Source: [Flexibacter] sp. ATCC 35103
GTDB taxonomy: Bacteria; Bacteroidota; Bacteroidia; Flavobacteriales; Flavobacteriaceae
NCBI RefSeq assembly: GCF_001975985.1
Contig: NZ_MTQF01000004.1
Coordinates: 112,064-176,063, forward strand
DNA length: 64,000 nucleotides
Reading direction: 5' to 3'
The notes beneath the pieces are model-generated. The model had not been told where the DNA came from. It saw only the letters and a list, made by a program, of their open reading frames with translations, and did no database searches. Positions 2,779 to 56,836 of this stretch are shown here, one piece after another (positions within the stretch are counted from its first letter, which is position 1; each line of letters begins with the position of its first letter). Made by a program: the position numbers and the translations under genes.

Positions 2779-5700
2779 TTAGAAAGTTACATTTAAATTA
2801 AGACCGACACTTCTAGTAGATGGTAAACCATAGATATCAACACCTTGCAAGCCTTCTCCTGTACTTAATGCAATATTTGGATCAAAAGGAGCGTCTTTGT
2901 AAATAAAGAATAAGTTTCTGGCAATTAAAGAGATACTAGCTGTTTGAAAAACAGGAAGTCTTTTAGGATTAAAAGTATATCCTATAGAAATCTCTCTTAC
3001 ACTTACGTTTGTACCACTGTAAATATATTCTCCGGTAATTCCGTCTCTTCCTCCAACTGTTTTGTAATATTGTTTAGCATCCATTGTAGTAACTGGTGTT
3101 CCATCAGGCATAACAGCGTTGATTGCAACTCCTCCAGCATTTCTGGCATCACCTGTAGCTTTAGATACTCCAAAATAATCGTTTTGAGCCTGAGTCATAC
3201 TCATAACTTCACCACCAAAACGTCCGTCAACTAATACATTTGCAAAGAATGCCCCTAATTTAAAAGAGTTAGAAAAACCTAACATAAAATCAGGATTTGC
3301 ATTTCCTACTTCAACAAAACCTGAACCGTTGTTTTGAATGTTTCCGTCTGAATTTAATAAAATTCTACCTTGAGCATCTCTTAAAATAGTTTTACCCATA
3401 ATAGCTCCAAATGGTCTTCCTTCGATTAATGAATATTGGTAATTATTAACTCCCGGATCTGTAAGGTTAACTACTTTTCCTAATGAATCAGGAAGTTCTT
3501 TTACCTTATTTCTATTTTGAGAAAAGTTTACAGATGAATCCCAAGTAAATTTATCACCTCTAACAATTCCAGCATTCAATACAATCTCAAAACCTTTATT
3601 TTCGATACTTCCTGCATTAAATCCGTAATATTTAACTCCTTCTGGATTTCCTTCTGGAGCAATAACCTGTAAATATTGATTTTTAGTTTCAGAACTGTAG
3701 TATGAAATTTCAAAACCTAATCTGTTGTTAAACATTCTCCACTCAGTACCAAATTCGTACTCAGATTTTAATTCTGGTTTTAAAGTAGTTCCGCTTTGTA
3801 CACCAACCTGAGGTTGTGCAGGAAGTCCTGGAAGGAAATAATTTACCGGAGTAGTAACAAAAGCATTAATATCGTTACCAACCTCAGCATAAGTTCCACG
3901 AACTTTAGCAAAACTGATGAAGTCCGGCATTGTAAACATTTCACTAAGAATACCTGTTACCCCTACTGAAGGATAAAAATAAGATGGACTATCTGTATTA
4001 ACTAATGTAGATGACCAGTCATTTCTAGCTGCTAAATCTAAATACAACATTTCTTTATATCCAAAAGTTGTAGTTGCAAACACAGATTGTACTTCTCTTT
4101 TAGAACCAATTGTTTGGTAATTTCCTGTGTTATTTACAAAGTTATGAAGTGTAAACCAGTTCGTAAGTGTTAATCCTCCTCCAATTCCTGAATCTAAAAT
4201 TGTTTTTTGATTTGTTAACGTATTAGTTATACTGGTACCAATGTTAGCATTGAATGTCAAATCATTAGAAAATTTTGTATTGATTGTAGCAATTAAATCT
4301 CCGTAACGTTGTGTGCTATATGAATTTTCGTTGATGTAACGACCATTTGCATGAGAAAGTGTTCCTTGAGTTGTAGCAAATATCTTTTTGTCAAATTCGC
4401 TGTCAATTCTGTTATAGCTATATCTTGAAGCAATTGTTAACCAATTATTTGCTTTGTAAGAAGCTGTAATTGCACCATTAAAGAAGTTATTTTTATCTTC
4501 AGATTTATTTCTGTTAATAGCCCAATATGGGTTTTGCATAATATCTCTGTTTGTCATCCAGTTTTGAGCCATTAAATTTCTGTTTGGATCAAAAACTTCA
4601 AAATTGTCTTTGTAAGCATTAAAATCGTTTCCTCTTGGCATTAAATAAACTCCAGTCAATGGGTTAAAATAAAGTCCGTTAACTGGTTTATTTATAATTG
4701 ATTGAGTTGTATAATTTGCATTTACTCCAAGTGTTAATTTATCATCTAAGAACTTAGCACTCTGACGAATACCAAAGTTATTTTTCTTGATACTGTTTCC
4801 AGGCATAATTCCTGTTCCTGATGTATTAGCATAAGATAATGCTGTAGAAGAATTTGCTGATGCAGTAGAATATCCTAAAGATGTAATTTGTGTAGTTCCT
4901 GTATTAAAGAAATCTTTTACGTGATCTTTTGATTTTTGTTTATTACCCCAAGTTTCATCTTCTCCTGCATTAGCAATGTAATCAGATTGAAATTCTGGTA
5001 AATAAGCCGCTGTATCAAAAGTAGTAACAGATGATGCTGAAATATTTCCTTTTCCTTCTTTAGCTTTTTTAGAAGAAAGTAAAATTACTCCATTTGCTCC
5101 CTGAGAACCATACAATACAGATGCTGCTGCACCTTTAAGAACTGTCATTCCTTCATAATCATCAGGATTAATCAAAGACACAACATCTCCACCATCACGA
5201 TTACCTCCTGATAAACTACCAAATGTATCATTTGGCTGTCCTGATCCGGAGTTTAGCATTGGGATACCATCAATAACATACAAAGGTTGGTTGTTTGTTA
5301 CAGAAGAGTTTCCACGAATAACAACTTTAGTAGATCCACCAGTACCTCCAGAGCTTTTTGTTACGGCAACACCAGCAATTTTACCGGCAATTGTATTGAT
5401 AACGTTTGCATCTTTTACACGAGTTAACTCTTCTCCTTTAAGTTCCTGAGCTGCGTATGTCAAAGATTTTCTAGTTTTCTTAAGACCTAATGAAGTTACA
5501 ACTACTTCATTTAATGCATTAGATGCACCTTGTTGCATTTTTACGTTAATTGTAGCAGCATCTCCTACAACTATTGATTGTGTTTCAAGACCTACATACG
5601 TAAAAACTAAAGTTTGTCCTTTTTGTGCTTCAATAGTGTACAAACCGTCAAAATCGGTAGTAGTACCTTTTTGACCTCCTTGTACTGCAACAGATGCCCC

Positions 5701-5811
5701 TGGCAATGGCAACCCGTCAGAATCTGTAATCACACCTTTGACATTTTTTACCTGAGCAAGTGAAACTTGCGCCGTAAAAACAATCATAAAGATTAAGAAA
5801 ATTTTTTTCAT
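2779..5811 (-). CDS. SusC/RagA-family TonB-linked outer membrane transporter (copy I)
   Basis: This 1010-residue TonB-dependent transporter would import chito-oligosaccharides across the outer membrane together with the adjacent SusD. In order: signal peptide (1-20, ending in SLAQ), a carboxypeptidase-D regulatory-like domain (about 25-95, [16 protein letters not shown]), a connecting VVVTSLG segment, the plug domain (about 120-240, with [19 protein letters not shown]) and a C-terminal beta-barrel ending in Phe. Length is normal for the family. Its first 35 residues resemble those of susC-II closely (shared [10 protein letters not shown] in the signal peptide), which suggests the two pairs arose by duplication. 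It is the first gene of its transcription unit, and its upstream region carries the 50-bp box at 5891-5940 also found before susC-II. Confidence 0.95.
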
Positions 5812-5890
5812 GTTTATTTATTTTGTTAGTTATGGTGTAAATTTATTCTTAAGGGATTGTTAAAAAAAATAATTTATACAAACGACTTTA

Positions 5891-5940
5891 AATTTTAAAC
5901 GAACGACATAAAACAATCAACAATACGTTTTACGAAAACG
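5891..5940 (-). promoter_or_regulatory. Conserved susC upstream box, copy I
   Basis: Positions 5891-5940 match 12091-12140 at 43 of 50 bases, and lie 80-129 bp before the susC-I ATG against 81-130 bp before the susC-II ATG. The box holds an inverted repeat CGTTTT-ACG-AAAACG; in this copy it runs on into the perfect palindrome GAAAACGTTTTC. Same sequence at the same distance suggests a shared operator, most simply for the LytTR regulator encoded at 13321-14022. The match is seen; the regulator assignment is inferred. The rest of the 365-bp gap 5812-6176 is AT-rich, with only a weak 7-bp hairpin near 6118-6139. Confidence 0.7.
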
Positions 5941-6176
5941 TTTTCAAATAAATAAACCACATGATTTTATATATTTTTCAAAGTTTTATTTATCAAATTA
6001 ACCATTTGTTTAAAATATCAATTAATCAATAAAGCTCTGAAATACTGCCAGATACATAAAAATTAGGGTATATTTAACAAGATATCATTATCTGAACCCA
6101 GATTAGCATCACTTAGCAGAATCTTTATTTTGATTCTGATTTTATTTATTTTTTAAAGACAATTCTATCAATCGCT

Positions 6177-8821: not shown

Positions 8822-11800
8822 TTAGAATGTAATTTTAATATTAAAACCATATGATTTTCTTGATGGCAATGAACCATACTCAAAACCTTGTCCGTTTCCT
8901 GACGTGTACATCGATTCCGGATCAATGTTTGGTAAATCTTTATTAAAAGTCAACAGATTTCTTGCAAATGCAGAAACATAGATTGAATTTATTTTTGCAC
9001 CGCCAAAAACACTTTTAGGTATTGTATATCCTAAACTTACCTCTCTTAATTTTACGTAAGAAGCATCATATATAAAAGGTGCAGGCGTGTTATCAAAAAC
9101 ATTTGTCCAATAAGTCTGAGGATCTACCGGAGTGGTATTTTTTACATAAACAGGATTATCAGCTGTTCCTGTATTTACAACTCCATGTGCTACATATCCG
9201 GCTGTAGGAACCCATGTTCCCACATTAAAATTAGGATCGTTTGCGGCGGCTTGCGCTCTGGCTGCATTAAATTCATCCCTGCCTTCTGTAGTGACATCTA
9301 AAAGTCCTTTTGTTGCAGCAACTGAATTTGTCATAGAATATACATCCATACCAAATTTCATATCTAATAAAAACTGAAGCGTAATTCCTTTATAAGAAAA
9401 TCTATTTGTTAAACCAGCTGCCCAATCCGGAAGCCCTTTTCCTAAAGTAACTTTTGTATCTGTGTATAACGGAAGACCATTAGCACCAACGATCATTTCT
9501 CCTGAAGGCGTTTTTTGAAAATCTTTTCCAATAATAGTTCCGTACTGACCGCCAACTTGTGCTACGATTGCTGCACCAGCCCAGCGAGCCTCAGAAATAG
9601 TGTACGTATTAATATCCGGATGCAAAGAAAGAATTGAGTTTTTATTCTTCGAAAAGTTCAAATCAATTCCCCATTCAAAATCTTTAGTTTTTATTGGTGA
9701 ACCGGATAAAAATATCTCGATACCTTCATTACGTAATTCTCCGGCATTTACAGAAAGAAATTCATATCCTGATGTTGCAGAAGATGCTAAATCAAGTGTT
9801 TGGTCAGATGTGTCTTCACGATAAACTGTTATATCCGCTTTTAATCTGTTTTTAAAGAAAGCGGTTTCTAATCCAAATTCGATTCCTGTTTTGGATTGGT
9901 AAGTCAGGTTAGCATTTGGTGCCGATGTATTTTTAATATTCACAACACTTTGTCCGTCATAAGCAGAATAAGTAGTGTAGTTCAAGGCATTTTTATATGC
10001 TCCCGGTGCATTGGAAACTTTTGCAATCGACGCTCTCAATTTTCCATAAGAAAATGTATCGCTCTTAATATTAAACGCATCAGAGAATACAAAACCTAAT
10101 GAAGCCGCAGGATAAAAAGCATCTTTTGTTATAACGCTAAACCAATCGTTTCTTCCCGTAAATTCAGCATATAAATATCCTTTGTAATCAAACTTTGCAG
10201 AACCGTAAACCGAATTTGTTCTTGTTTTAGTTTCTGATGGTGCATTAATGGTCTGAGTAGAAAAATTACTGATATATTCTGTTCCCGGCTGAATAATATT
10301 TGTTCCCTGGCTGGAATTTTCAGATCTGTTAAAATTTCTTCTGCTTGTTCCTAAAATTCCTGAGAAAGTAAGATCTGTAGCTAGTTTAATTTCACTAAAA
10401 GTGGCAATGATATCCGTATTCATTTCAGAAACCGTAATATCATTCAAACCTAAATATCCAGTATCTCTTCCCGGCCAAGTACTTCCGGGCGCCATAAAAT
10501 CTTTAGAATTAAAAACATAAGTATCAAGACCTGTTCTAAAAGTTAATCCAACCCATTTTTTAAGCTGATATGTTCCGGCGACATTTCCTGTAAAACGATT
10601 TTTCTTAGAAGAGTTGTGATTTGCATCTACAGTAAAATAAGGATTCAACTGATAAATGTTATTATTCCATTTATAAATTTCTCCTGTATCCGGATTTCCG
10701 TAATTTTTCAACCACGCCTGATCAATATTTGGCGCCAATCCGCTTAAAGAATAACCAACGTTATTAGGAGAATCTCCCAAACCTGGTCTGTTTTGTGTGT
10801 TTTCAACCATATAATTTACATTGGCATCCAAAGTAAATTTATCCGATTTTAAAGTAGCATTTAAAGTAGCATTATTTCGTTCTAACCCGGAACCAGGAAC
10901 TACATCATCATTTTTCAGGTTATTAAATCCAAAACGAACATATGCATTTTCACTACCTCCGGAAAGCGCAACTCCGTTAGTTGTAGTAACTCCGGTTTTA
11001 AAAAAGTTCTGAATATTATTGTCTACTTTAGCATAAGGTCTCATCGAACCATCAAATATTTTAACCTGCTGTCCTACCGTTTGCGAGAATTTAGGTCCCC
11101 ATGCACTTGTAGTATATCCATAAATTTCGCTCGGTGCTTTTGCAGGATCCGGCAAAATTCCGTGTGAACCTGTACCATATTCATCCTGAAAATCTTCATA
11201 TTTAGCATTTACTCTGTCAAAACTAACACCACTTGTTAATTCTACCTGTAGTTTACCTTTACTTCCTTTTTTAGTAGTAATTAAAATTACCCCATTTAAT
11301 GCTCTTGATCCATATAAAGCAGATGCTGCTGCTCCTTTTAATACACTCAGGCTTTCGATATCATTTGGGTTAATACTGGATAATCCGTCACCGTTATCAC
11401 GTCCGTCGAACCATTTACTTGCTGCAGCACTATCATTAGACAAACCTGTATTATCAATAGGAACTCCATCTACGACATAAAGCGGCTGGTTATTCTCGCC
11501 TATACTCGAAATACCTCTAATGATAACTCTGGCGCTTCCTCCTGCACCTGTAGCAGGCATAGAAACATCAACACCGGCAATTTTACCGGAAAGTGCCGAG
11601 GCTACATTCGTGGTAATCACTTTATTCAATTGGTCTCCTTTTACATCCTGAATGGCATAACCCAATTCTTTCTTCTGTCTCTTAATACCTAAAGCCGTAA
11701 CTACAACTTCATTTAAATTTTGTGCATCTTCAGCCAGCACAACATTTACTGTAGCTGAACTTGCAACGGTTACCGTTTTAGTTTTAATGCCGATATACGA

Positions 11801-12010
11801 AAAAACAAGAACATCACCTGTCGATGCCTGTATCGCATACATTCCGTCATAATCAGACTGTGTTGCCGTTTTTGTGCCTTGAATAATAATACTTACTCCC
11901 GGCAATGGCAATCCGTTTTGATCGCTTACTAAACCCTTGATTGTTTTTACTTGTGCAATTGAAAATTGCGCAGTAAAAACAATCATAAAGATTAACATAA
12001 TTCGTTTCAT
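8822..12010 (-). CDS. SusC/RagA-family TonB-linked outer membrane transporter (copy II)
   Basis: This outer-membrane transporter has 1062 residues from the chosen start. The frame is open up to 12061, but the ATG at 12010 begins a standard signal peptide ([20 protein letters not shown]) and the upstream part is leader-like, so 12010 is preferred. Domain order is signal peptide, carboxypeptidase-D regulatory-like domain (about 25-95), the VVVTALG linker, plug (GVDVSMPATGAGGSARVIIR region) and beta-barrel ending in Phe. It is the first gene of the susC-II, susD-II, GH18 unit, divergent from the sensor kinase gene. The conserved box at 12091-12140 lies 81 bp upstream. Role: TonB-driven import of chitin oligomers. 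Confidence 0.94.
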   Translation of the reverse strand: MKRIMLIFMIVFTAQFSIAQVKTIKGLVSDQNGLPLPGVSIIIQGTKTATQSDYDGMYAIQASTGDVLVFSYIGIKTKTVTVASSATVNVVLAEDAQNLNEVVVTALGIKRQKKELGYAIQDVKGDQLNKVITTNVASALSGKIAGVDVSMPATGAGGSARVIIRGISSIGENNQPLYVVDGVPIDNTGLSNDSAAASKWFDGRDNGDGLSSINPNDIESLSVLKGAAASALYGSRALNGVILITTKKGSKGKLQVELTSGVSFDRVNAKYEDFQDEYGTGSHGILPDPAKAPSEIYGYTTSAWGPKFSQTVGQQVKIFDGSMRPYAKVDNNIQNFFKTGVTTTNGVALSGGSENAYVRFGFNNLKNDDVVPGSGLERNNATLNATLKSDKFTLDANVNYMVENTQNRPGLGDSPNNVGYSLSGLAPNIDQAWLKNYGNPDTGEIYKWNNNIYQLNPYFTVDANHNSSKKNRFTGNVAGTYQLKKWVGLTFRTGLDTYVFNSKDFMAPGSTWPGRDTGYLGLNDITVSEMNTDIIATFSEIKLATDLTFSGILGTSRRNFNRSENSSQGTNIIQPGTEYISNFSTQTINAPSETKTRTNSVYGSAKFDYKGYLYAEFTGRNDWFSVITKDAFYPAASLGFVFSDAFNIKSDTFSYGKLRASIAKVSNAPGAYKNALNYTTYSAYDGQSVVNIKNTSAPNANLTYQSKTGIEFGLETAFFKNRLKADITVYREDTSDQTLDLASSATSGYEFLSVNAGELRNEGIEIFLSGSPIKTKDFEWGIDLNFSKNKNSILSLHPDINTYTISEARWAGAAIVAQVGGQYGTIIGKDFQKTPSGEMIVGANGLPLYTDTKVTLGKGLPDWAAGLTNRFSYKGITLQFLLDMKFGMDVYSMTNSVAATKGLLDVTTEGRDEFNAARAQAAANDPNFNVGTWVPTAGYVAHGVVNTGTADNPVYVKNTTPVDPQTYWTNVFDNTPAPFIYDASYVKLREVSLGYTIPKSVFGGAKINSIYVSAFARNLLTFNKDLPNIDPESMYTSGNGQGFEYGSLPSRKSYGFNIKITF

Positions 12011-12090
12011 TTTATCATGGTTTTGTTGGTTAAGCGATAAATCTATTGTTAAAATTAACATAAATAAAACATTTTAAACAAACAACACAA

Positions 12091-12140
12091 AACCTTAAAC
12101 GAACGACGCAAAACATTCAATAATGCGTTTTACGAAAACG
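12091..12140 (-). promoter_or_regulatory. Conserved susC upstream box, copy II
   Basis: This box matches 5891-5940 at 43 of 50 bases, including TTAAACGAACGAC and the inverted repeat CGTTTT-ACG-AAAACG. Its extension differs from copy I: the second palindrome is broken, with ATATCC in place of TTTTC. It lies in the 268-bp divergent gap between susC-II and the sensor gene, so a bound regulator could also affect the regulatory genes. Confidence 0.7.
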
Positions 12141-12278
12141 ATATCCTCTAAAAATAATTTAGTTTTAATCTTTTTTTCCAAAATTTTCTTCAAAAGAATT
12201 GTGTTTTAGCAAGTAATTGTTTAAAGTTGCACAATAATTACAGGCAAGAAGCCAATAACAATAAATCATTACTTAAAG

Positions 12279-13331
12279 TTGACTGAAATTCAAAAATTAA
12301 AATTTGATATTAAACTTAAAAATCACGTTTGGTTTTGGGGCAGCTACTTCACTCTTAACTTTTTACGTTGGGGAGCTTACTTTAATGACTATCCCTATTC
12401 GTTTAAATCAAACTTAATTGAGTTCTGTTTACACATTCCTCTGGTCTATTTTAATCTTTTTGTTTTAGTACCTCGTTTTGTACTTAAGCAGAAATATATT
12501 CAATATACATTTTCTTTAATAGTAAGTCTTTTTGGAATTTATTTATTAAAAACAGCTCTTACCTATTATATTATATCAGAAAACATCTGGCCTGAAGCAA
12601 ACAGAGAATACCATCCTTTTGAAATCAATCATATTGTTGCTGTTTGTATTGGCGAATTGTATGTTCTGGCTATGGCTTCATCAGTTTACCTGACATTAAC
12701 CTGGTTAAGAGAACGCGAAAGAAACCGATCATTAAGAGAAAATCAGTTTAAAATAAAATTGAAATACCTGGAAAATCAAATTCAGCCTCATTTCTTTTTC
12801 AATACTTTAAATAATCTGTACGCATTATCATTAGAATCCTCTGATAAGGTTCCGGATGTAATTATAAAACTGTCGAATTTGATGGAATATGTTTTATATG
12901 ACATAAAAGGGACCAAATTTGTTCCATTAATCAAAGAGATAGATTACATTCAAAATTATATCGAAATTGAGAAGTTACGCTTTGAAAACGTTGAAGTTAC
13001 GATTAACCTGGAATCCAATATAGAAGATATCGTTGTACCGCCCTTAATATTTATATCATTAGTTGAAAATGCCTTTAAACACGGAGGTTTTAACAACAAT
13101 AACTTAAAAATTAAGATCAATTGTAAGGTTGTTAACAATAAAACGTTAGATTTTGAAATCCTAAATAATTTTGTAAATTCACAAAATCTTAATACTAAAG
13201 GCGGAATTGGTTTAGTTAATACCAAGAAAAGATTAAAATTAATTTACAAAAGTGATTTCAGTTTAAAACATAAAACGAAATTAAATTACTATATAATCCG
13301 TTTGCAAATACCTATTAATAATGAAGATTAA
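12279..13331 (+). CDS. LytS-type membrane sensor histidine kinase of the chitin locus
   Basis: This 350-residue kinase of the His_kinase (LytS/YehU) family probably senses a chitin breakdown signal and phosphorylates the regulator encoded next. Four hydrophobic segments (about 18-35, 47-65, 76-98, 117-142) form the membrane part, followed by a short charged linker and the phosphoacceptor block QIQPHFFFNTLNNLYALSLE with His171. The ATPase part shows an N-box-like ENAFKHG and a GGIGLVNTKKRL G-box. No ATG lies before the membrane part, so the TTG at 12279 is the likely start. The end overlaps the regulator's ATG by 11 bp, which indicates translational coupling. No separate sensory domain is visible, so the signal must act on the membrane helices or their loops. 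Confidence 0.9.
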   Translation: MTEIQKLKFDIKLKNHVWFWGSYFTLNFLRWGAYFNDYPYSFKSNLIEFCLHIPLVYFNLFVLVPRFVLKQKYIQYTFSLIVSLFGIYLLKTALTYYIISENIWPEANREYHPFEINHIVAVCIGELYVLAMASSVYLTLTWLRERERNRSLRENQFKIKLKYLENQIQPHFFFNTLNNLYALSLESSDKVPDVIIKLSNLMEYVLYDIKGTKFVPLIKEIDYIQNYIEIEKLRFENVEVTINLESNIEDIVVPPLIFISLVENAFKHGGFNNNNLKIKINCKVVNNKTLDFEILNNFVNSQNLNTKGGIGLVNTKKRLKLIYKSDFSLKHKTKLNYYIIRLQIPINNED

Positions 13332-14022
13332 ATGCGTGTTGATTGATGATGAGCCATTAGCAATCAAAGTCCTGCAAAATTATTTTACAAATTTTACAGA
13401 CTTTGAAGTCATTGGTACATTCAATAATTCTCTGGAAGCGCTTGATTTTATAAACAGTACTGCTGTTGATGCCGTATTTTTAGACATCAACATGCCTATG
13501 ATGACGGGTTTTGAACTCATTAGTTTAATCGAAAATAAAACCAAGGTTATCATCACCACCGCTTTTAGGGAATTTGCTGCCGAAAGCTATGATCTTGATG
13601 TTTTAGACTATTTAGTAAAACCAATTCCGTTACCTCGATTTATAAAATGCATTAATAAAATTACAACCGAGTACAATTTAAAAAACAATATTAAGGTCGA
13701 AACCACAAAAGGGGACTCTCATATTTTTATCAAAGTCGATAAAAAAATGATGAAAATTAATATCGAAGAAATTTTATTTGTCGAAGGAATGAAGGAATAT
13801 ATCAAGGTTGTTACTCCTGATAAAACCTATATTACCCATAAATCATTGACTTCATTATCTGAAGAATTGCCTGCAGATCGCTTTTTAAGAATTCATAAAT
13901 CATACGTTATTGCACTAAATAAGGTAAAATCTATCGAAGGAAACCGCATTCAGATCCAGTCATACACCATTCCTATTGGCAGAAATTACAGCAAAGAGGT
14001 CAAAAACAAAATTCTTGAATAA
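13321..14022 (+). CDS. LytTR-family response regulator of the chitin locus
   Basis: This 233-residue regulator has an N-terminal receiver domain (Asp9/Asp10, phosphoacceptor Asp55 in FLDINMP, Thr79/80, Lys100 in LVKP) and a C-terminal LytTR DNA-binding domain (about 130-233, with EILFVEGMKEYIKV and FLRIHKSYVIALNKV). LytTR domains bind paired 9-bp direct repeats through beta strands. It is coupled to the kinase gene by overlap and sits beside the divergent susC-II. The best target candidates in the window are the boxes at 5891-5940 and 12091-12140. Family and pairing are clear; the target is inferred. Confidence 0.92.
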   Translation: MKIKCVLIDDEPLAIKVLQNYFTNFTDFEVIGTFNNSLEALDFINSTAVDAVFLDINMPMMTGFELISLIENKTKVIITTAFREFAAESYDLDVLDYLVKPIPLPRFIKCINKITTEYNLKNNIKVETTKGDSHIFIKVDKKMMKINIEEILFVEGMKEYIKVVTPDKTYITHKSLTSLSEELPADRFLRIHKSYVIALNKVKSIEGNRIQIQSYTIPIGRNYSKEVKNKILE

Positions 14023-14198
14023 ATTCTTATTCTCAATTTCATTTTATAACTCAGTAAAAATTAACACATTGTTGAAAAAATGATGCCGTTGGTTTAAATT
14101 TAACATTATTTGTGCCTTTTTATTTTTTTTTGATATACTTAACAAATATATTTACGGTCTTCAAAAAACAATAAAATAAAAAATTAACCTCTTAAATT

Positions 14199-15668
14199 AT
14201 GAGTTCAGAAAATGTTCAAACCAAATGGGGACAGTTTATCTCTTTGATAATTGTTTTCTTCTTTTGGGGTTTTGTTGGTTCAGCCAATGATATCCTGATT
14301 CCAGTATTCAAAAAAGTATTCACTTTATCACAAGTACAATCTCAATTAGTAGCCTGGGCATTTTATGCTGCGTACTTTGTAGGATCTATGATATTCTTTT
14401 TAGTTTCCTTAAAATTAGATGTTTTACAAAAATTCGGATACAAAAAAACACTTTCTGCCGGTTTACTTCTTTCTGCAGTTGGTTCATTTTTATTCATTCC
14501 TGCTGCAACAATGGAAAGTTTTCCTTTCTTTTTAACCGCTTTATTTACAGTAGGTTTAGGATTTTCAATACAACAAATCGTTGCCAATCCGTTAGCTATT
14601 AAAATGGGAAGTCCTGCAACAGGAGCGCACCGTTTGACATTGGCCGGAGGAATAAACTCTTTTGGAACAACAATTGGAGCTATCCTTTTAGGAATCGCTT
14701 TGTTTGGAATGGGAGACAACAAAAACACATCACTTTCATTAGAAGATATCAAATTACCTTTCGTTATTCTTGGGCTTGCATTTATTGTAGTGGCCATTTT
14801 CATGAACTTCTCTAAAATCGAAGATCCTGCAAAAGAAGAGGAAGAAGTAGTTAAAGTAGCACACGAAAAATTCAACATCCTGGATTACCCACAATTATAT
14901 TTAGGAATGTTAGGAATCTTTATTTATGTTGGAACAGAGGTTACCATTATCAGTAATTTACCTGCATTGCTTCATACTGCAGAATTCGGAAACGTATTAG
15001 AAGATGCCATTGCACCATTTATCGCCTTATATTGGGGAAGTTTAATGATTGGTCGCTGGAATGGCGGAGTTAACGTTTTTAATACTTCAAACTTAGTAAA
15101 CACGGCATTAAAATTCATTGTACCGGCTGTAGCTTTTGGAGTAATTATTGGAGCTAACATTTTTGCTGCTCATGACGTTTCTGCATTTTACATTTACCCA
15201 ATCTGGATCTTATTGTTTATCGCTGTAAGTTTTGTAGGTGGTAAAAATGCGGGAAAAACATTAATGCTTTTTGGAATATCAGGTTTATTAATGATGGTTG
15301 CAGGATTAGCCTGGCCAGATCCGTCAATTGCTAAATTCTTCTTTATTTCCGGAGGTTTATTCTTATCTATCATGTGGCCATCGATATTCGATTTAGCTAT
15401 TGCAGGTTTAGGAAAAAACACAGGAAAAGCGTCTTCATTCTTAATTATGATGATTCTTGGTGGAGGAGTTATTCCATTAATTCAGGGAAGTATCTGCGAT
15501 ATTGACTTAACAAGCCCGGGTGGAATCTTCGGAATCACCTGGACTCACTTCTCTTACATCGTTCCACTTCTTGGTTTTGCTTATTTAGGATTCTACGGTT
15601 TCTATTGCCCTAAAATCTTAAAAAGACAAGGAATTAACCACGTTGAAGGTGGCGGTGGAGGTCACTAA
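14199..15668 (+). CDS. nagP: MFS sugar permease (FucP/NagP-like), probable GlcNAc importer
   Basis: This 489-residue inner-membrane permease of the FHS/FucP branch of the major facilitator superfamily has about twelve hydrophobic segments and the N-terminal FFFWGFVGSANDILIPVF helix typical of the family. The middle loop is charged (DPAKEEEEVVK, about 208-218). Location right after the two-component genes and opposite the SusC/D pairs, together with NagB, points to N-acetylglucosamine or chitobiose uptake into the cytoplasm; the substrate is inferred from context. A glycine-rich tail (GGGGGH) ends the protein. It is 176 bp after the regulator and ends before a strong terminator at 15692-15736. 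Confidence 0.85.
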   Translation: MSSENVQTKWGQFISLIIVFFFWGFVGSANDILIPVFKKVFTLSQVQSQLVAWAFYAAYFVGSMIFFLVSLKLDVLQKFGYKKTLSAGLLLSAVGSFLFIPAATMESFPFFLTALFTVGLGFSIQQIVANPLAIKMGSPATGAHRLTLAGGINSFGTTIGAILLGIALFGMGDNKNTSLSLEDIKLPFVILGLAFIVVAIFMNFSKIEDPAKEEEEVVKVAHEKFNILDYPQLYLGMLGIFIYVGTEVTIISNLPALLHTAEFGNVLEDAIAPFIALYWGSLMIGRWNGGVNVFNTSNLVNTALKFIVPAVAFGVIIGANIFAAHDVSAFYIYPIWILLFIAVSFVGGKNAGKTLMLFGISGLLMMVAGLAWPDPSIAKFFFISGGLFLSIMWPSIFDLAIAGLGKNTGKASSFLIMMILGGGVIPLIQGSICDIDLTSPGGIFGITWTHFSYIVPLLGFAYLGFYGFYCPKILKRQGINHVEGGGGGH

Positions 15669-36584: not shown

Positions 36585-36660
36585 ACTTGTCCCGCTGTAC
36601 GTTATATCTTTTCCTTGCTAAAGAAGCAAGAAAAAGGATACCACTTCCATCGGGGCTAGA
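36585..36660. repeat. Degenerate interspersed repeat (TAGCCCCGAT...GCGGGA type)
   Basis: On the minus strand the segment runs TAGCCCCGATGGAAG, a hairpin core (TCCTTGCTAAAGAAGCAAG on the plus strand) and GCGGGACAAG. I recall this layout as a frequent intergenic element in Flavobacterium genomes; no database was searched. The rest of 36383-36710 shows no gene. Confidence 0.55.
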
Positions 36661-36710
36661 ATAGCTGTTTTTCGTTTTTTGAAGAACTTTTCTTAACAGC
36701 TTTGTCAAAG

Positions 36711-37697
36711 ATTGTACACGAAACCCAATCAGCTTTGTCTCAAACTTCGGGCAATCTCCTTAAGCTAAGTATTAAATAATAAAAAAATGCTCCAGCGGAG
36801 CTGAATATTTATAGCACAATTTATTTCATACACAAAAAGCTCCGGAGGAGTGGCATATTTTTCAACAATATATGTCGCTCCTCTGGAGCTTGAAATAATC
36901 GTTACATAATTGCTATAAATATTCAGCTCCGATAGAGCTTTCGCAGCAAATAAAAATTCGAAAATAACTAGTATTCAATCAAAATCTCTTAACTAATACA
37001 AACCCGACAGGTTTTTAAAACCTGTCGGGTTTAACTAAGATTGCGCATGAAACCCAATCGGTTTTGTCTCAAACTCCGGGCAATGTCCTAAAGTTAAGTA
37101 TTAAATAATAAAAAAATGCTCCAGCAGAGCTGAATATTTATAGCACAATTTATTTCATACACAAAAAGCTCCGGAGGAGCGGCATATTTTTAAACAATAG
37201 ATGTTGCTCCTCCGGAGCTTGAAATAATGGTTACATAATTGCTATAAATATTCAGCTCCGATGGAGCTTTCGCAGCAAATAAAATGCATAAAAAACTCGT
37301 ATTAAATCAAAAATCTCTTAACTAATACAAACCCGACAGGTTTTTAAAACCTGTCGGGTTTAACTAAGATTGTGCATGAAACCCAATCGGTTTTGTCTCA
37401 AACTTCGGGCAATGTCCTTAAGCTAAGGATTAAATAATAAAAAAATGCTCCAGCGGAGCTGAATATTTATAGCACAATTTATTTCATACACAAAAAGCTC
37501 CGGAGGAGCGGCATATTTTTAAACAATATATGTCCCTCCTCCGGAGCTTGCAATAATGATTACATAATTGCTATAAATATTCAGCTCCGATGGAGTTTTC
37601 GCAGCAAATAAAAATTCAAAAACAACTAGTATTCAATCAAAAATCTCTTAACCAATACAAACCCGACAGGTTTTTAAAACCTGTCGGGTTTAACTAG
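36711..37697. repeat. Three tandem ~329-bp repeats with nested inverted repeats
   Basis: Units start near 36711, 37040 and 37369; landmarks recur at 329 bp (one at 330). Each unit has an outer 19-bp perfect stem (copy 1: 36798-36816 with 36911-36929), an inner stem with GCTCCGGAGGAG (36839-36850) against CTCCTCTGGAGC (36878-36889), and a 33-bp hairpin with AACCCGACAGG. Most differences in the inner arms leave a G-U pair; one in copy 3 gives a C-C mismatch. No open frame of 60 codons is present on either strand. It fills the gap between bshA and the gene at 37775. Confidence 0.9.
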
Positions 37698-45645: not shown

Positions 45646-46026
45646 ATGAAAAAGATCATTTTTACAGAGAAAGCACCAGCTCCAATCGGGCCTTATAATC
45701 AAGCTGTATTATCAGGAAATACACTTTATGCTTCTGGTCAGATTGCAATAAACCCGGCTTCAGGAGAACTTATTACAGAAAACATTAATGATGAAACAAA
45801 GCAGGTAATGGAAAACATTGCAGCAATTTTAGACGCTGCAGGTATGACTTTTGAAAACGTAGTTAAAGCTACTATCTTCATCATGGATATGAATAATTTT
45901 GCCGCAATAAACACTATTTACGGTTCTTATTTTAATGAAAAAACAGCTCCGGCACGTGAAACGGTGCAAGTTGCATGTTTACCAAAAAACGTAAATGTAG
46001 AAATTTCTATAATTGCTGTACAATAG
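45646..46026 (+). CDS. ridA: RidA-family enamine/imine deaminase
   Basis: This 126-residue RidA/YjgF protein hydrolyses reactive enamines and imines made by PLP enzymes such as threonine dehydratase. Motifs: APAPIGPYNQAVLSGNTLYASGQIAI (8-33), NFAAINTIYGSYF and the substrate-binding Arg and Glu in APARETVQVACLPKN (about 104-118). Length matches the family (about 125-130). Trimeric and cytoplasmic. It follows lptD by 118 bp in the same direction but is probably its own unit, and overlaps the convergent methylglyoxal synthase gene by 20 bp at the 3' ends. Confidence 0.95.
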   Translation: MKKIIFTEKAPAPIGPYNQAVLSGNTLYASGQIAINPASGELITENINDETKQVMENIAAILDAAGMTFENVVKATIFIMDMNNFAAINTIYGSYFNEKTAPARETVQVACLPKNVNVEISIIAVQ

Positions 46027-46390
46027 CATTCAATACTAATTGTGCCGTTGCTTCGTTAGTCGCCAGCGGCACATTATGAACATCACAAATCCTGAGCAGC
46101 ATATTCACATCAACTTCATGAGCATGACTTGCCAAAGGATCTTTAAAGAAAAAGACCGTATTAATACTGCCTTCTGCTACTTTTGAAGCAATCTGAGCAT
46201 CACCTCCCATACTGCAAGGCAACATTTTTTTTACTTTAAATCCTGATTTTTCTGCATTCCTGCCTAATAATCCTGTGGCAATAAGTTTTACTCTTTCATT
46301 TTTCAGTGTGATACCGTTTTTTATAAGAAACTGGATCATATCTGCTTTTTTATTATCATGTGCAATAATTGCAATTATATGTTTTTTCAT
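46007..46390 (-). CDS. Divergent methylglyoxal synthase paralog with altered phosphate site
   Basis: This 127-residue protein is clearly homologous to the neighbouring mgsA product, keeping IIAHDNKKADM, MGGDAQIA (Asp64), FFFKDPLASHAHEVD and NVPLATNEATA. However TGTTG, whose threonines hold substrate phosphate in E. coli MgsA (Thr47, Thr48), is TGLLG here (39-43), and SGPMGGD is PCSMGGD (58-64), so the loop Gly is lost. Activity on dihydroxyacetone phosphate may be lost or changed. It could be a regulator of its paralog, an enzyme with other substrate, or a decaying copy. Reading frame is intact. It is separated from the paralog gene by 197 bp with a terminator. Confidence 0.85.
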   Translation of the reverse strand: MKKHIIAIIAHDNKKADMIQFLIKNGITLKNERVKLIATGLLGRNAEKSGFKVKKMLPCSMGGDAQIASKVAEGSINTVFFFKDPLASHAHEVDVNMLLRICDVHNVPLATNEATAQLVLNAIVQQL

Positions 46391-46530
46391 AATTTTAACA
46401 ATAAATTTATTACCGAAATTACATTAAAAAAACAAGCTTATAGAAATTAAAACAATGAATATCAAATATTTAACAGATGCAAAAATTAAAAAACCAATGA
46501 GAACAACAGAATAGCTAAGATTTAAACAAA

Positions 46531-46562
46531 AAAAAACCGCTCAATAAATGAAACGGTTTTTT
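46531..46562 (-). terminator. Terminator between the two methylglyoxal synthase genes
   Basis: Arms 46531-46539 and 46554-46562 pair (9 bp) around a 14-nt loop, with T9 on the minus strand. It probably ends the nagK-mgsA unit before the paralog gene. Confidence 0.7.
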
Positions 46563-46587
46563 GAATATTAGTTATATAAGTAATTTT

Positions 46588-46962
46588 CTATAATTGCAGT
46601 GCGATGGCATTAAGCAATAACTGAGCAGAAGCTTCGTTTGTTGCCAGGGGAACATTATGTACATCACAAACACGAATAAGCATGTTAATATCGACTTCAT
46701 GAGCGTGACTTGCAAGCGGATCTTTAAAAAAGAAAACCATTTGTGTTTTGCCTTCGGCTACACGGGCAGCAATCTGGGCATCACCTCCCATTGGTCCTGA
46801 AAGCTTTCTTTTTACCTTAAATCCAGCATTTATAGCTTTACTTCCGGTTGTTCCTGTTGCGATCAATTTAATGTTTTCCTGAAGAAGAAGGGTTTTGTTT
46901 TTGTTTAAAAACTGAACCATATCTGCTTTTTTTCCATCGTGAGCTATAATAGCAATTTCCAT
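46588..46962 (-). CDS. mgsA: Methylglyoxal synthase
   Basis: This 124-residue enzyme converts dihydroxyacetone phosphate to methylglyoxal and phosphate, a safety valve when sugar phosphates build up. Family residues are complete: IIAHDGKKADM (5-15), TGTTG (36-40) for phosphate, SGPMGGD (55-61) with catalytic Asp61, FFFKDPLASHAHEVD and NVPLATNEASA. It is shorter than E. coli MgsA (152), which is usual for short bacterial forms. It starts 12 bp after the kinase gene in the same direction and lies downstream of gap and pfkA. Confidence 0.93.
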   Translation of the reverse strand: MEIAIIAHDGKKADMVQFLNKNKTLLLQENIKLIATGTTGSKAINAGFKVKRKLSGPMGGDAQIAARVAEGKTQMVFFFKDPLASHAHEVDINMLIRVCDVHNVPLATNEASAQLLLNAIALQL

Positions 46963-56803: not shown

Positions 56804-56836
56804 AAACCCGACAGGTTTTAAAAACCTGTCGGGTTT
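56804..56836 (+). terminator. Terminator hairpin of the CCCGACAGG family
   Basis: Arms 56804-56819 and 56821-56836 pair perfectly (16 bp) around one base. The same 33-bp sequence, reverse-complemented at its centre, occurs in each unit of the array at 36711-37697. Confidence 0.8.

Follow-up and report, generated by a model that had tools for sequence, protein, structure and literature searches.

Half-sites 21 bp apart before the susC genes of a flavobacterial chitin locus form a probable operator for the neighbouring LytTR regulator CusR

LytTR operators and the chitin utilization locus

LytTR regulators such as HdrR and BrsR of Gram-positive bacteria are described as binding 9-bp direct repeats, mostly 12 bp apart, which are located just upstream of the -35 box and serve activation (PMC6193735). 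AgrA likewise binds such repeats and activates (PMC4227749). In Bacteroides, LRS-like operons have a promoter with a TATCTTTG -7 box and, at a constant distance upstream of it, direct repeats (PMC6193735, Table 3), and for flavobacteria TAnnTTTG has been reported as the -7 consensus (PMC9723704, PMC2483708). A system for chitin utilization is described in the ChiUL of Flavobacterium johnsoniae, which comprises CusS-CusR, two CusCD pairs, ChiA, ChiB, a GH20 enzyme, NagB and a transporter; deletion of cusS-cusR led to loss of ChiA, and the mutant did not grow on chitin (PMC5127042). The words promoter and LytTR are absent from the main text of that paper, which gives no operator, unlike the present analysis. 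Judged by title, and apart from the ChiUL paper, none of the matches listed in a literature search for LytTR or CusR together with chitin, SusC or polysaccharide utilization dealt with the operator, most subscription journals being outside the coverage of this search. The type of switch is already known, and the mapping of a chitin-uptake operator is new as far as we found.

The window analyzed here, a stretch of 64,000 nucleotides, contains a chitin utilization locus that resembles the ChiUL of F. johnsoniae when gene content is compared. On the minus strand cusCII, cusDII and chiB are followed by cusCI and cusDI; cusCI (2779–5811) and cusCII (8822–12010) encode SusC-like TonB-dependent transporters. 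Past cusDI lie genes for a nagB-deacetylase and a GH20 enzyme as well as chiA, which has two GH18 stretches. The plus strand carries cusS, encoding a LytS-type histidine kinase (12279–13331, start codon uncertain), cusR, encoding the LytTR response regulator that we propose as binder (13321–14022), and an MFS transporter gene, the proposed third target (14199–15668). The locus is therefore of the F. johnsoniae type, with two susCD pairs, a chiA with two GH18 stretches, chiB, GH20 and nagB, and with a two-component system and an inner-membrane transporter alongside. In total 17 LytTR proteins are encoded in the genome.

A ladder of half-sites before both susC genes

The first-pass annotation had pointed to a 50-bp box shared by the two susC genes at the same distance from their start codons. 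We found 43 of 50 positions to be identical between 5891–5940 and 12091–12140 without gaps, and the boxes indeed precede the SusC start codons at 5811 and 12010 on the minus strand by 80 and 81 bp. When both intergenic regions were shuffled 300 times with dinucleotides preserved, no pair of 50-bp stretches agreed at more than 35 positions, the mean of the best matches being 29.8. The surrounding intergenic DNA had been taken to be otherwise unlike, which is not the case: an ungapped repeat spans 92 bp at 78% identity (5861–5952 and 12061–12152), and a second repeat of 137 bp at 74% crosses the start codons into the genes.

The conserved unit consists of a ladder of half-sites 21 bp apart, namely the degenerate H1, H2 (GTCGTTYGTTTAA) and H3 (GYYGTTNGTWTAA). 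Before cusCI, on the minus strand, the promoter-proximal half-site H3 is located at 5874–5886, H2 at 5895–5907, 21 bp from H3, and H1, with an ATTRTTGA core and taken by us as a third half-site, at 5916–5928, again 21 bp from H2. The predicted -7 box TAAATTTA at 5838–5845 is 28 bp from H3, and an accessory element U (AACGTTTTCG) occupies 5933–5942. Before cusCII, likewise on the minus strand, H3 is found at 12074–12086, H2 at 12095–12107, H1 at 12116–12128 and U, with one base different (ATCGTTTTCG), at 12133–12142; the predicted -7 box TAGATTTA at 12038–12045 is also 28 bp from H3. H2 and H3 start 21 bp apart in both susC promoters of the window, as in LytTR-type operators. The 50-bp box splits this unit, as H1, H2 and 8 of the 10 bases of U lie inside it and H3 lies outside. 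Half-sites of LytTR regulators follow the broad consensus [TA][AC][CA]GTTN[AG][TG]. By eye its GTTN[AG][TG] part fits H2 and H3, whose first bases often deviate, and H1 deviates from the GTT core. We consider it likely, on the strength of sequence comparison, that the shared box makes up most of an activator operator for the neighbouring CusR, which would act through direct-repeat half-sites every 21 bp.

The ladder formed by H2 and H3 has the 9-12-9 arrangement of direct repeats reported for LytTR regulators (PMC6193735). With the Gram-positive operators of HdrR, BrsR (PMC6193735) and AgrA (PMC4227749) it shares 9-bp repeats, mostly 12 bp apart there, and a position just upstream of the promoter for what would be an activating regulator. 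It differs from them in that the regulator is a two-component PUL regulator in Flavobacterium, that the -7 box is of the TAnnTTTG kind, and that the susC promoters add a third, degenerate half-site (H1) in phase as well as U. The fixed distance of direct repeats before a -7-box promoter is shared with the LRS-like operons of Bacteroides, whereas these have 11-11-11 repeats in place of 9-12-9 and a TGTA or TGTG -33 box, the -33 slot in cusCI reading TTTT (counted by eye).

We searched 150 Flavobacterium genomes for CusR (E up to 1e-60) and found a full-length orthologue of at least 73% identity in 44 of them. A truncated copy (76%) is located at a contig end in G046, and three genomes (G025, G051, G074) gave CusR matches of about 50% identity only. 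Besides the window we took 43 orthologous loci and one locus (L090) with a CusR relative of 48–51% identity, and collected the DNA upstream of start-matched cusC-like genes. This yielded 51 promoters from 41 loci, which together with the two of the window form a set of 53; L078, L085 and L090 contributed none. Strongly conserved in the alignment are U (AACGTTTTCG), H1 (ATTRTTGA), H2 (TGTCGTTNGTTTAA), H3 (GTTNGTNTAA), a T-run and a TAAWTTTA box. The half-site cores are conserved to at least 90%, while the DNA between them and upstream drifts. A 34-bp H2-H3 consensus, drawn from the same promoters, is matched at 33 or more positions by 49 of the 53; the remaining four reach 32 (L087), 31 (L084), 30 (L081) and 30 at another place (L082). 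Among spacings of 14–31 bp, 21 bp scored best, whether the motif was used (21.7 vs at most 18.2) or left out (10.8 vs at most 8.9). In 52 of 53 susC promoters a TAnnTTT(A/G) sequence, the predicted -7 box, follows H3 at a distance of exactly 28 bp, in keeping with the fixed-distance promoter of LytTR-type operators; the box corresponds to the flavobacterial TAnnTTTG consensus, its last base often being A. The leader right after the -7 box (TAACTAACAAAA-like; positions 5812–5837 of the window, 53 counterparts) is about as conserved as the operator.

Both boxes contain the inverted repeat CGTTTT-ACG-AAAACG, which had been noted before and is perfect in each (5926–5940 and 12126–12140). This raises the alternative that CusR or another dimeric regulator recognizes the inverted repeat and that the rest is incidental, in which case the arms of the dyad should be conserved or change together. 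We used the arm CGTTTTCG on the minus strand as an anchor, which is found in 46 of 53 promoters and missing in 7; the CusCII promoter of L054 is among these seven, yet has a one-base variant. In the 46 anchored promoters the six pairs are complete in 19, reduced to five in 17 and to fewer in 10. Although 36 of the 46 keep five or six pairs, the right arm drifts without compensation while the anchored arm is constant, and six promoters without any such inverted repeat still have H2-H3-like repeats. Moreover, the right arm overlaps H1, the second base of which is C in 53 of 53 promoters, and this overlap accounts for part of the likeness to an inverted repeat. We rejected CGTTTT-ACG-AAAACG as the operator and hold its recognition by a dimer to be very improbable. 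Another palindrome that could be read here, GAAAAC-GTTTTC, is intact in 25 of the 46.

The alignment of the two susC upstream regions shows similarity that reaches the signal-peptide codons. This would also be expected from common descent without function, if the promoter and the 5’ end of susC had been duplicated or exchanged. Exchange under unlike susC genes is apparent from L061 and L066, whose promoters are 99% identical while the proteins are 31% identical. Ten genomes have both types; there CusCI and CusCII share 24–32% identity as proteins, and their promoters 68–77%; the promoters of the pair in L074, both CusCI-like, are 83% identical, and over 507 susC pairs with proteins below 45% identity the promoters average 72%. 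Promoters thus seem to have been swapped under different susC genes with the half-sites retained. Descent alone is contradicted by the drift of spacer and upstream DNA around the half-site cores, by the occurrence of the element before non-homologous genes and by its following cusR throughout the genus, so that we give it next to no credence and keep to an operator for CusR.

Repeats of other kinds occur elsewhere in the window. Three tandem copies of a unit of 329–330 bp are located at 36652–37696, each with a perfect or near-perfect hairpin sequence AAACCCGACAGGTTTTTAAAACCTGTCGGGTTT that recurs at 56804–56836 (97%). At 46001–46957 a 297-bp stretch is present twice (72% identity) at a distance of 581 bp, and a 61-bp repeat with the same spacing comes next.

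Occurrence with cusR, further targets and element U

With up to two mismatches the H2-H3 pattern was found in 42 of 150 genomes and the reversed pattern in 3. The pattern is present in 41 of the 44 genomes with full-length cusR and in one (G128) of the 106 others, counts that are not independent events as genomes and promoters are related. The three cusR genomes without it are G045, G117 and G147 (loci L081, L082, L084); G046 with its truncated cusR, counted among the 106 others, also lacks it. Because cusR adjoins the susC genes and the pattern accompanies it to this extent, CusR has the distribution of a cognate regulator. In the genome of the window we found two H2-H3 matches with up to three mismatches and one match in the reversed control. 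Among 397 genomes of the family one CusR orthologue was detected in another genus (G362, 82% identity), and U, H1, H2 and H3 are all present in its locus (L179).

The consensus found in the susC promoters and its co-occurrence with cusR bear out an operator common to both genes. The adjacent LytTR regulator, which had been named as the simplest binder, stands as the likely one, with the direct repeat in place of the inverted repeat as its probable site. In the alignment of susC upstream regions across Flavobacterium it is this direct-repeat ladder that is conserved, half of which lies outside the box as originally drawn.

On the plus strand, H1 (14064–14076) and H2 (14085–14097) are present in the MFS promoter of the window, without a clear H3. 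Here the ladder is placed 21 bp further from the predicted -7 box TATATTTA (14147–14154, plus strand), H2 being located 49 bp (28 + 21) before it, and is thus in register. The same register was observed in 38 of 41 MFS-like promoters, the genes of which are 37–98% identical to that of the window; those of L084, L087 and L088 do not conform. We read H1 as a degenerate half-site because four MFS-like promoters (L081, L082, L085, L086) have a half-site with a GTT core in the H1 slot. Exact matches to H2-N49-TAnnTTTR in the genome of the window are three, namely cusCI, cusCII and the MFS gene, and there are two to H3-N28-TAnnTTTR. At up to two mismatches these combinations of half-site and -7 box gave 29 and 24 matches, below the 46 and 31 of the reversed controls; the control totals are not split by mismatch, and the exact matches stand without a control. 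The element recurs at the MFS gene, and the regulon therefore probably extends beyond the two transport operons that the first-pass annotation had seen linked by a common operator. No site reached the score threshold before chiA, GH20 or nagB in 18 kb of the same genome, and expression of chiA would consequently require read-through from cusCI or some indirect route.

Outside susC promoters the 150 genomes contain 15 H2-H3 matches. Twelve of them combine a -7 box at a distance of exactly 28 bp with H1-like DNA (by eye); the other three (L169, L170, L171), all with two mismatches, have neither. The full ladder is located before nagB-deacetylase-like genes in L071, L073, L078 and L085 (two of the four Pfam-typed), before T9SS subtilases in L050 and L068 and before a T9SS CBM6 protein in L168. 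In L163–L167, directly downstream of pnp, it precedes a small ORF followed by genes for a TonB receptor and a DUF4249 protein (one Pfam-typed). These five loci (in G109, G053, G108, G096 and G057, all with cusR) carry the complete composite of U, H1, H2, H3 and -7 box, with U altered in L165. The post-pnp promoters are a possible extra target of CusR outside the chitin locus; the H2-H3 matches in the genome of the window include no counterpart.

The U-H1 pattern was found with up to one mismatch in 35 of the 150 genomes, every one of which belongs to the 44 cusR genomes, and no reversed match was obtained. U hence tracks cusR as well, in fewer genomes than H2-H3. We treat it as a separate accessory element, to which our account of the ladder gives no role. 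Alternatively, full control might take two regulators, with CusR at the direct repeat and another protein at U (AACGTTTTCG). Such an arrangement would suit the strong conservation of U in the susC alignment, its restriction to cusR genomes and its presence beside the ladder at the two subtilase promoters and after pnp, where it is unchanged over AACGTTTTC in four of five. However, its anchor is missing in 7 of 53 susC promoters, and the MFS, nagB and CBM6-protein promoters inspected lack U. The palindrome GAAAACGTTTTC, considered as the mark of a wider regulon but not supported as such, has 7 sites in the genome of the window and 7 in the reversed control, so that no wider regulon is visible. 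Of six ORFs near three of these sites, Pfam assigned two, a glutamate dehydrogenase-type enzyme and a piece of an outer-membrane barrel, and left four without a name. Because U is confined to genomes with cusR, contact by CusR itself is also conceivable. As a possible fourth half-site, U begins with AACGTT, which fits the LytTR consensus, but its start precedes the H1 copy by 14 bp instead of 21 bp (by eye). A second regulator appears rather unlikely to us, and we retain the account in which CusR acts on the ladder.

Relatives of CusR and a model of activation

We also assessed loci with relatives of CusR, ten paralogous or related ones (response regulator identity 46–49%) and 22 distant ones (49–55%); the distant locus L184 was dropped for want of a kinase match. 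The best 21-bp repeat upstream of the kinase was selected by half-site score, followed by a search for a laxer TAn(n)TTT. The latter begins exactly 28 bp on in 8 of the 10 paralogous or related loci (the next commonest offset in 4) and in 9 of the 22 distant loci (the next commonest offset in 3). In the distant loci the mean motif score peaks at spacing 21 (16.05 vs 15.68), but spacing 24 puts more loci over the cut than spacing 21 (12 vs 11), and in the ten paralogous loci the motif-free score is higher at spacing 16 than at 21 (9.8 vs 9.3). The preference for 21 bp alone is thus weak in the relatives of CusR, and an extension of the rule beyond CusR is offered as a suggestion. When the 17 LytTR loci in the genome of the window were scanned for this geometry with 8 of 9 bases required to match, none of 81 -7-like sites qualified; the scan says little, being too strict to detect even cusCII (7 of 9). 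Of the 60 PDB matches listed out of 90, most were to the receiver part, and they offered no guide to DNA contacts. A second CusS/CusR-like pair with a response regulator 48% identical to CusR was observed in L040 (G000:C23:203000-215000), where it adjoins genes for GH92, an alpha-L-fucosidase and a nagB-deacetylase and has a drifted pair of half-sites with the same 21/28 spacing.

For the chitin locus we propose that chitin oligosaccharides would be sensed by CusS, upon which CusR would turn on both SusCD operons and the inner-membrane transporter. CusR would bind half-sites every 21 bp, corresponding to two helical turns and hence to one face of the DNA, and would occupy H1-H2-H3 at each susC and H1-H2 at the MFS gene. 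With the ladder at a fixed distance from the -7 box and without a good -33 box, bound CusR would recruit RNA polymerase. The SusCD operons would bring chiB, with nagB, GH20 and chiA following by read-through. We infer binding by CusR and activation of cusCI, cusCII and the MFS gene because the ladder has the form and place of a LytTR operator, the co-occurring regulator adjoins it and the cusS-cusR deletion has the phenotype described above; the status of H1 as a true half-site and the read-through to chiA are part of the same inference. Against this account speaks that no site precedes chiA, whose product disappears in the published cusS-cusR mutant, and that U is given no function in it; the three cusR genomes without the pattern and the three non-conforming MFS-like promoters also count against it.

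Tentatively, and with slightly less than even chances in our estimate, the 21-bp ladder and its 28-bp offset might be a rule for an entire branch of LytTR activators of sugar-uptake loci in the Flavobacteriaceae. The number of occupied rungs, two or three, might then set promoter strength or the order of induction, while the cassette would have been captured by unrelated genes (subtilase, nagB, CBM6 protein, TonB operon) and susC exchanged beneath it.

In summary, the proposed operator provides a testable model, resolved to single bases, of how a chitin degrader similar to F. johnsoniae would turn on its chitin locus, for which the main text in print gives the phenotype of the regulator deletion only. 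The fixed geometry would serve as a simple predictor of targets for LytTR regulators of the CusR branch. One operator cassette apparently serves SusC proteins that are about 30% identical, which suggests that transporters are exchangeable under constant control.
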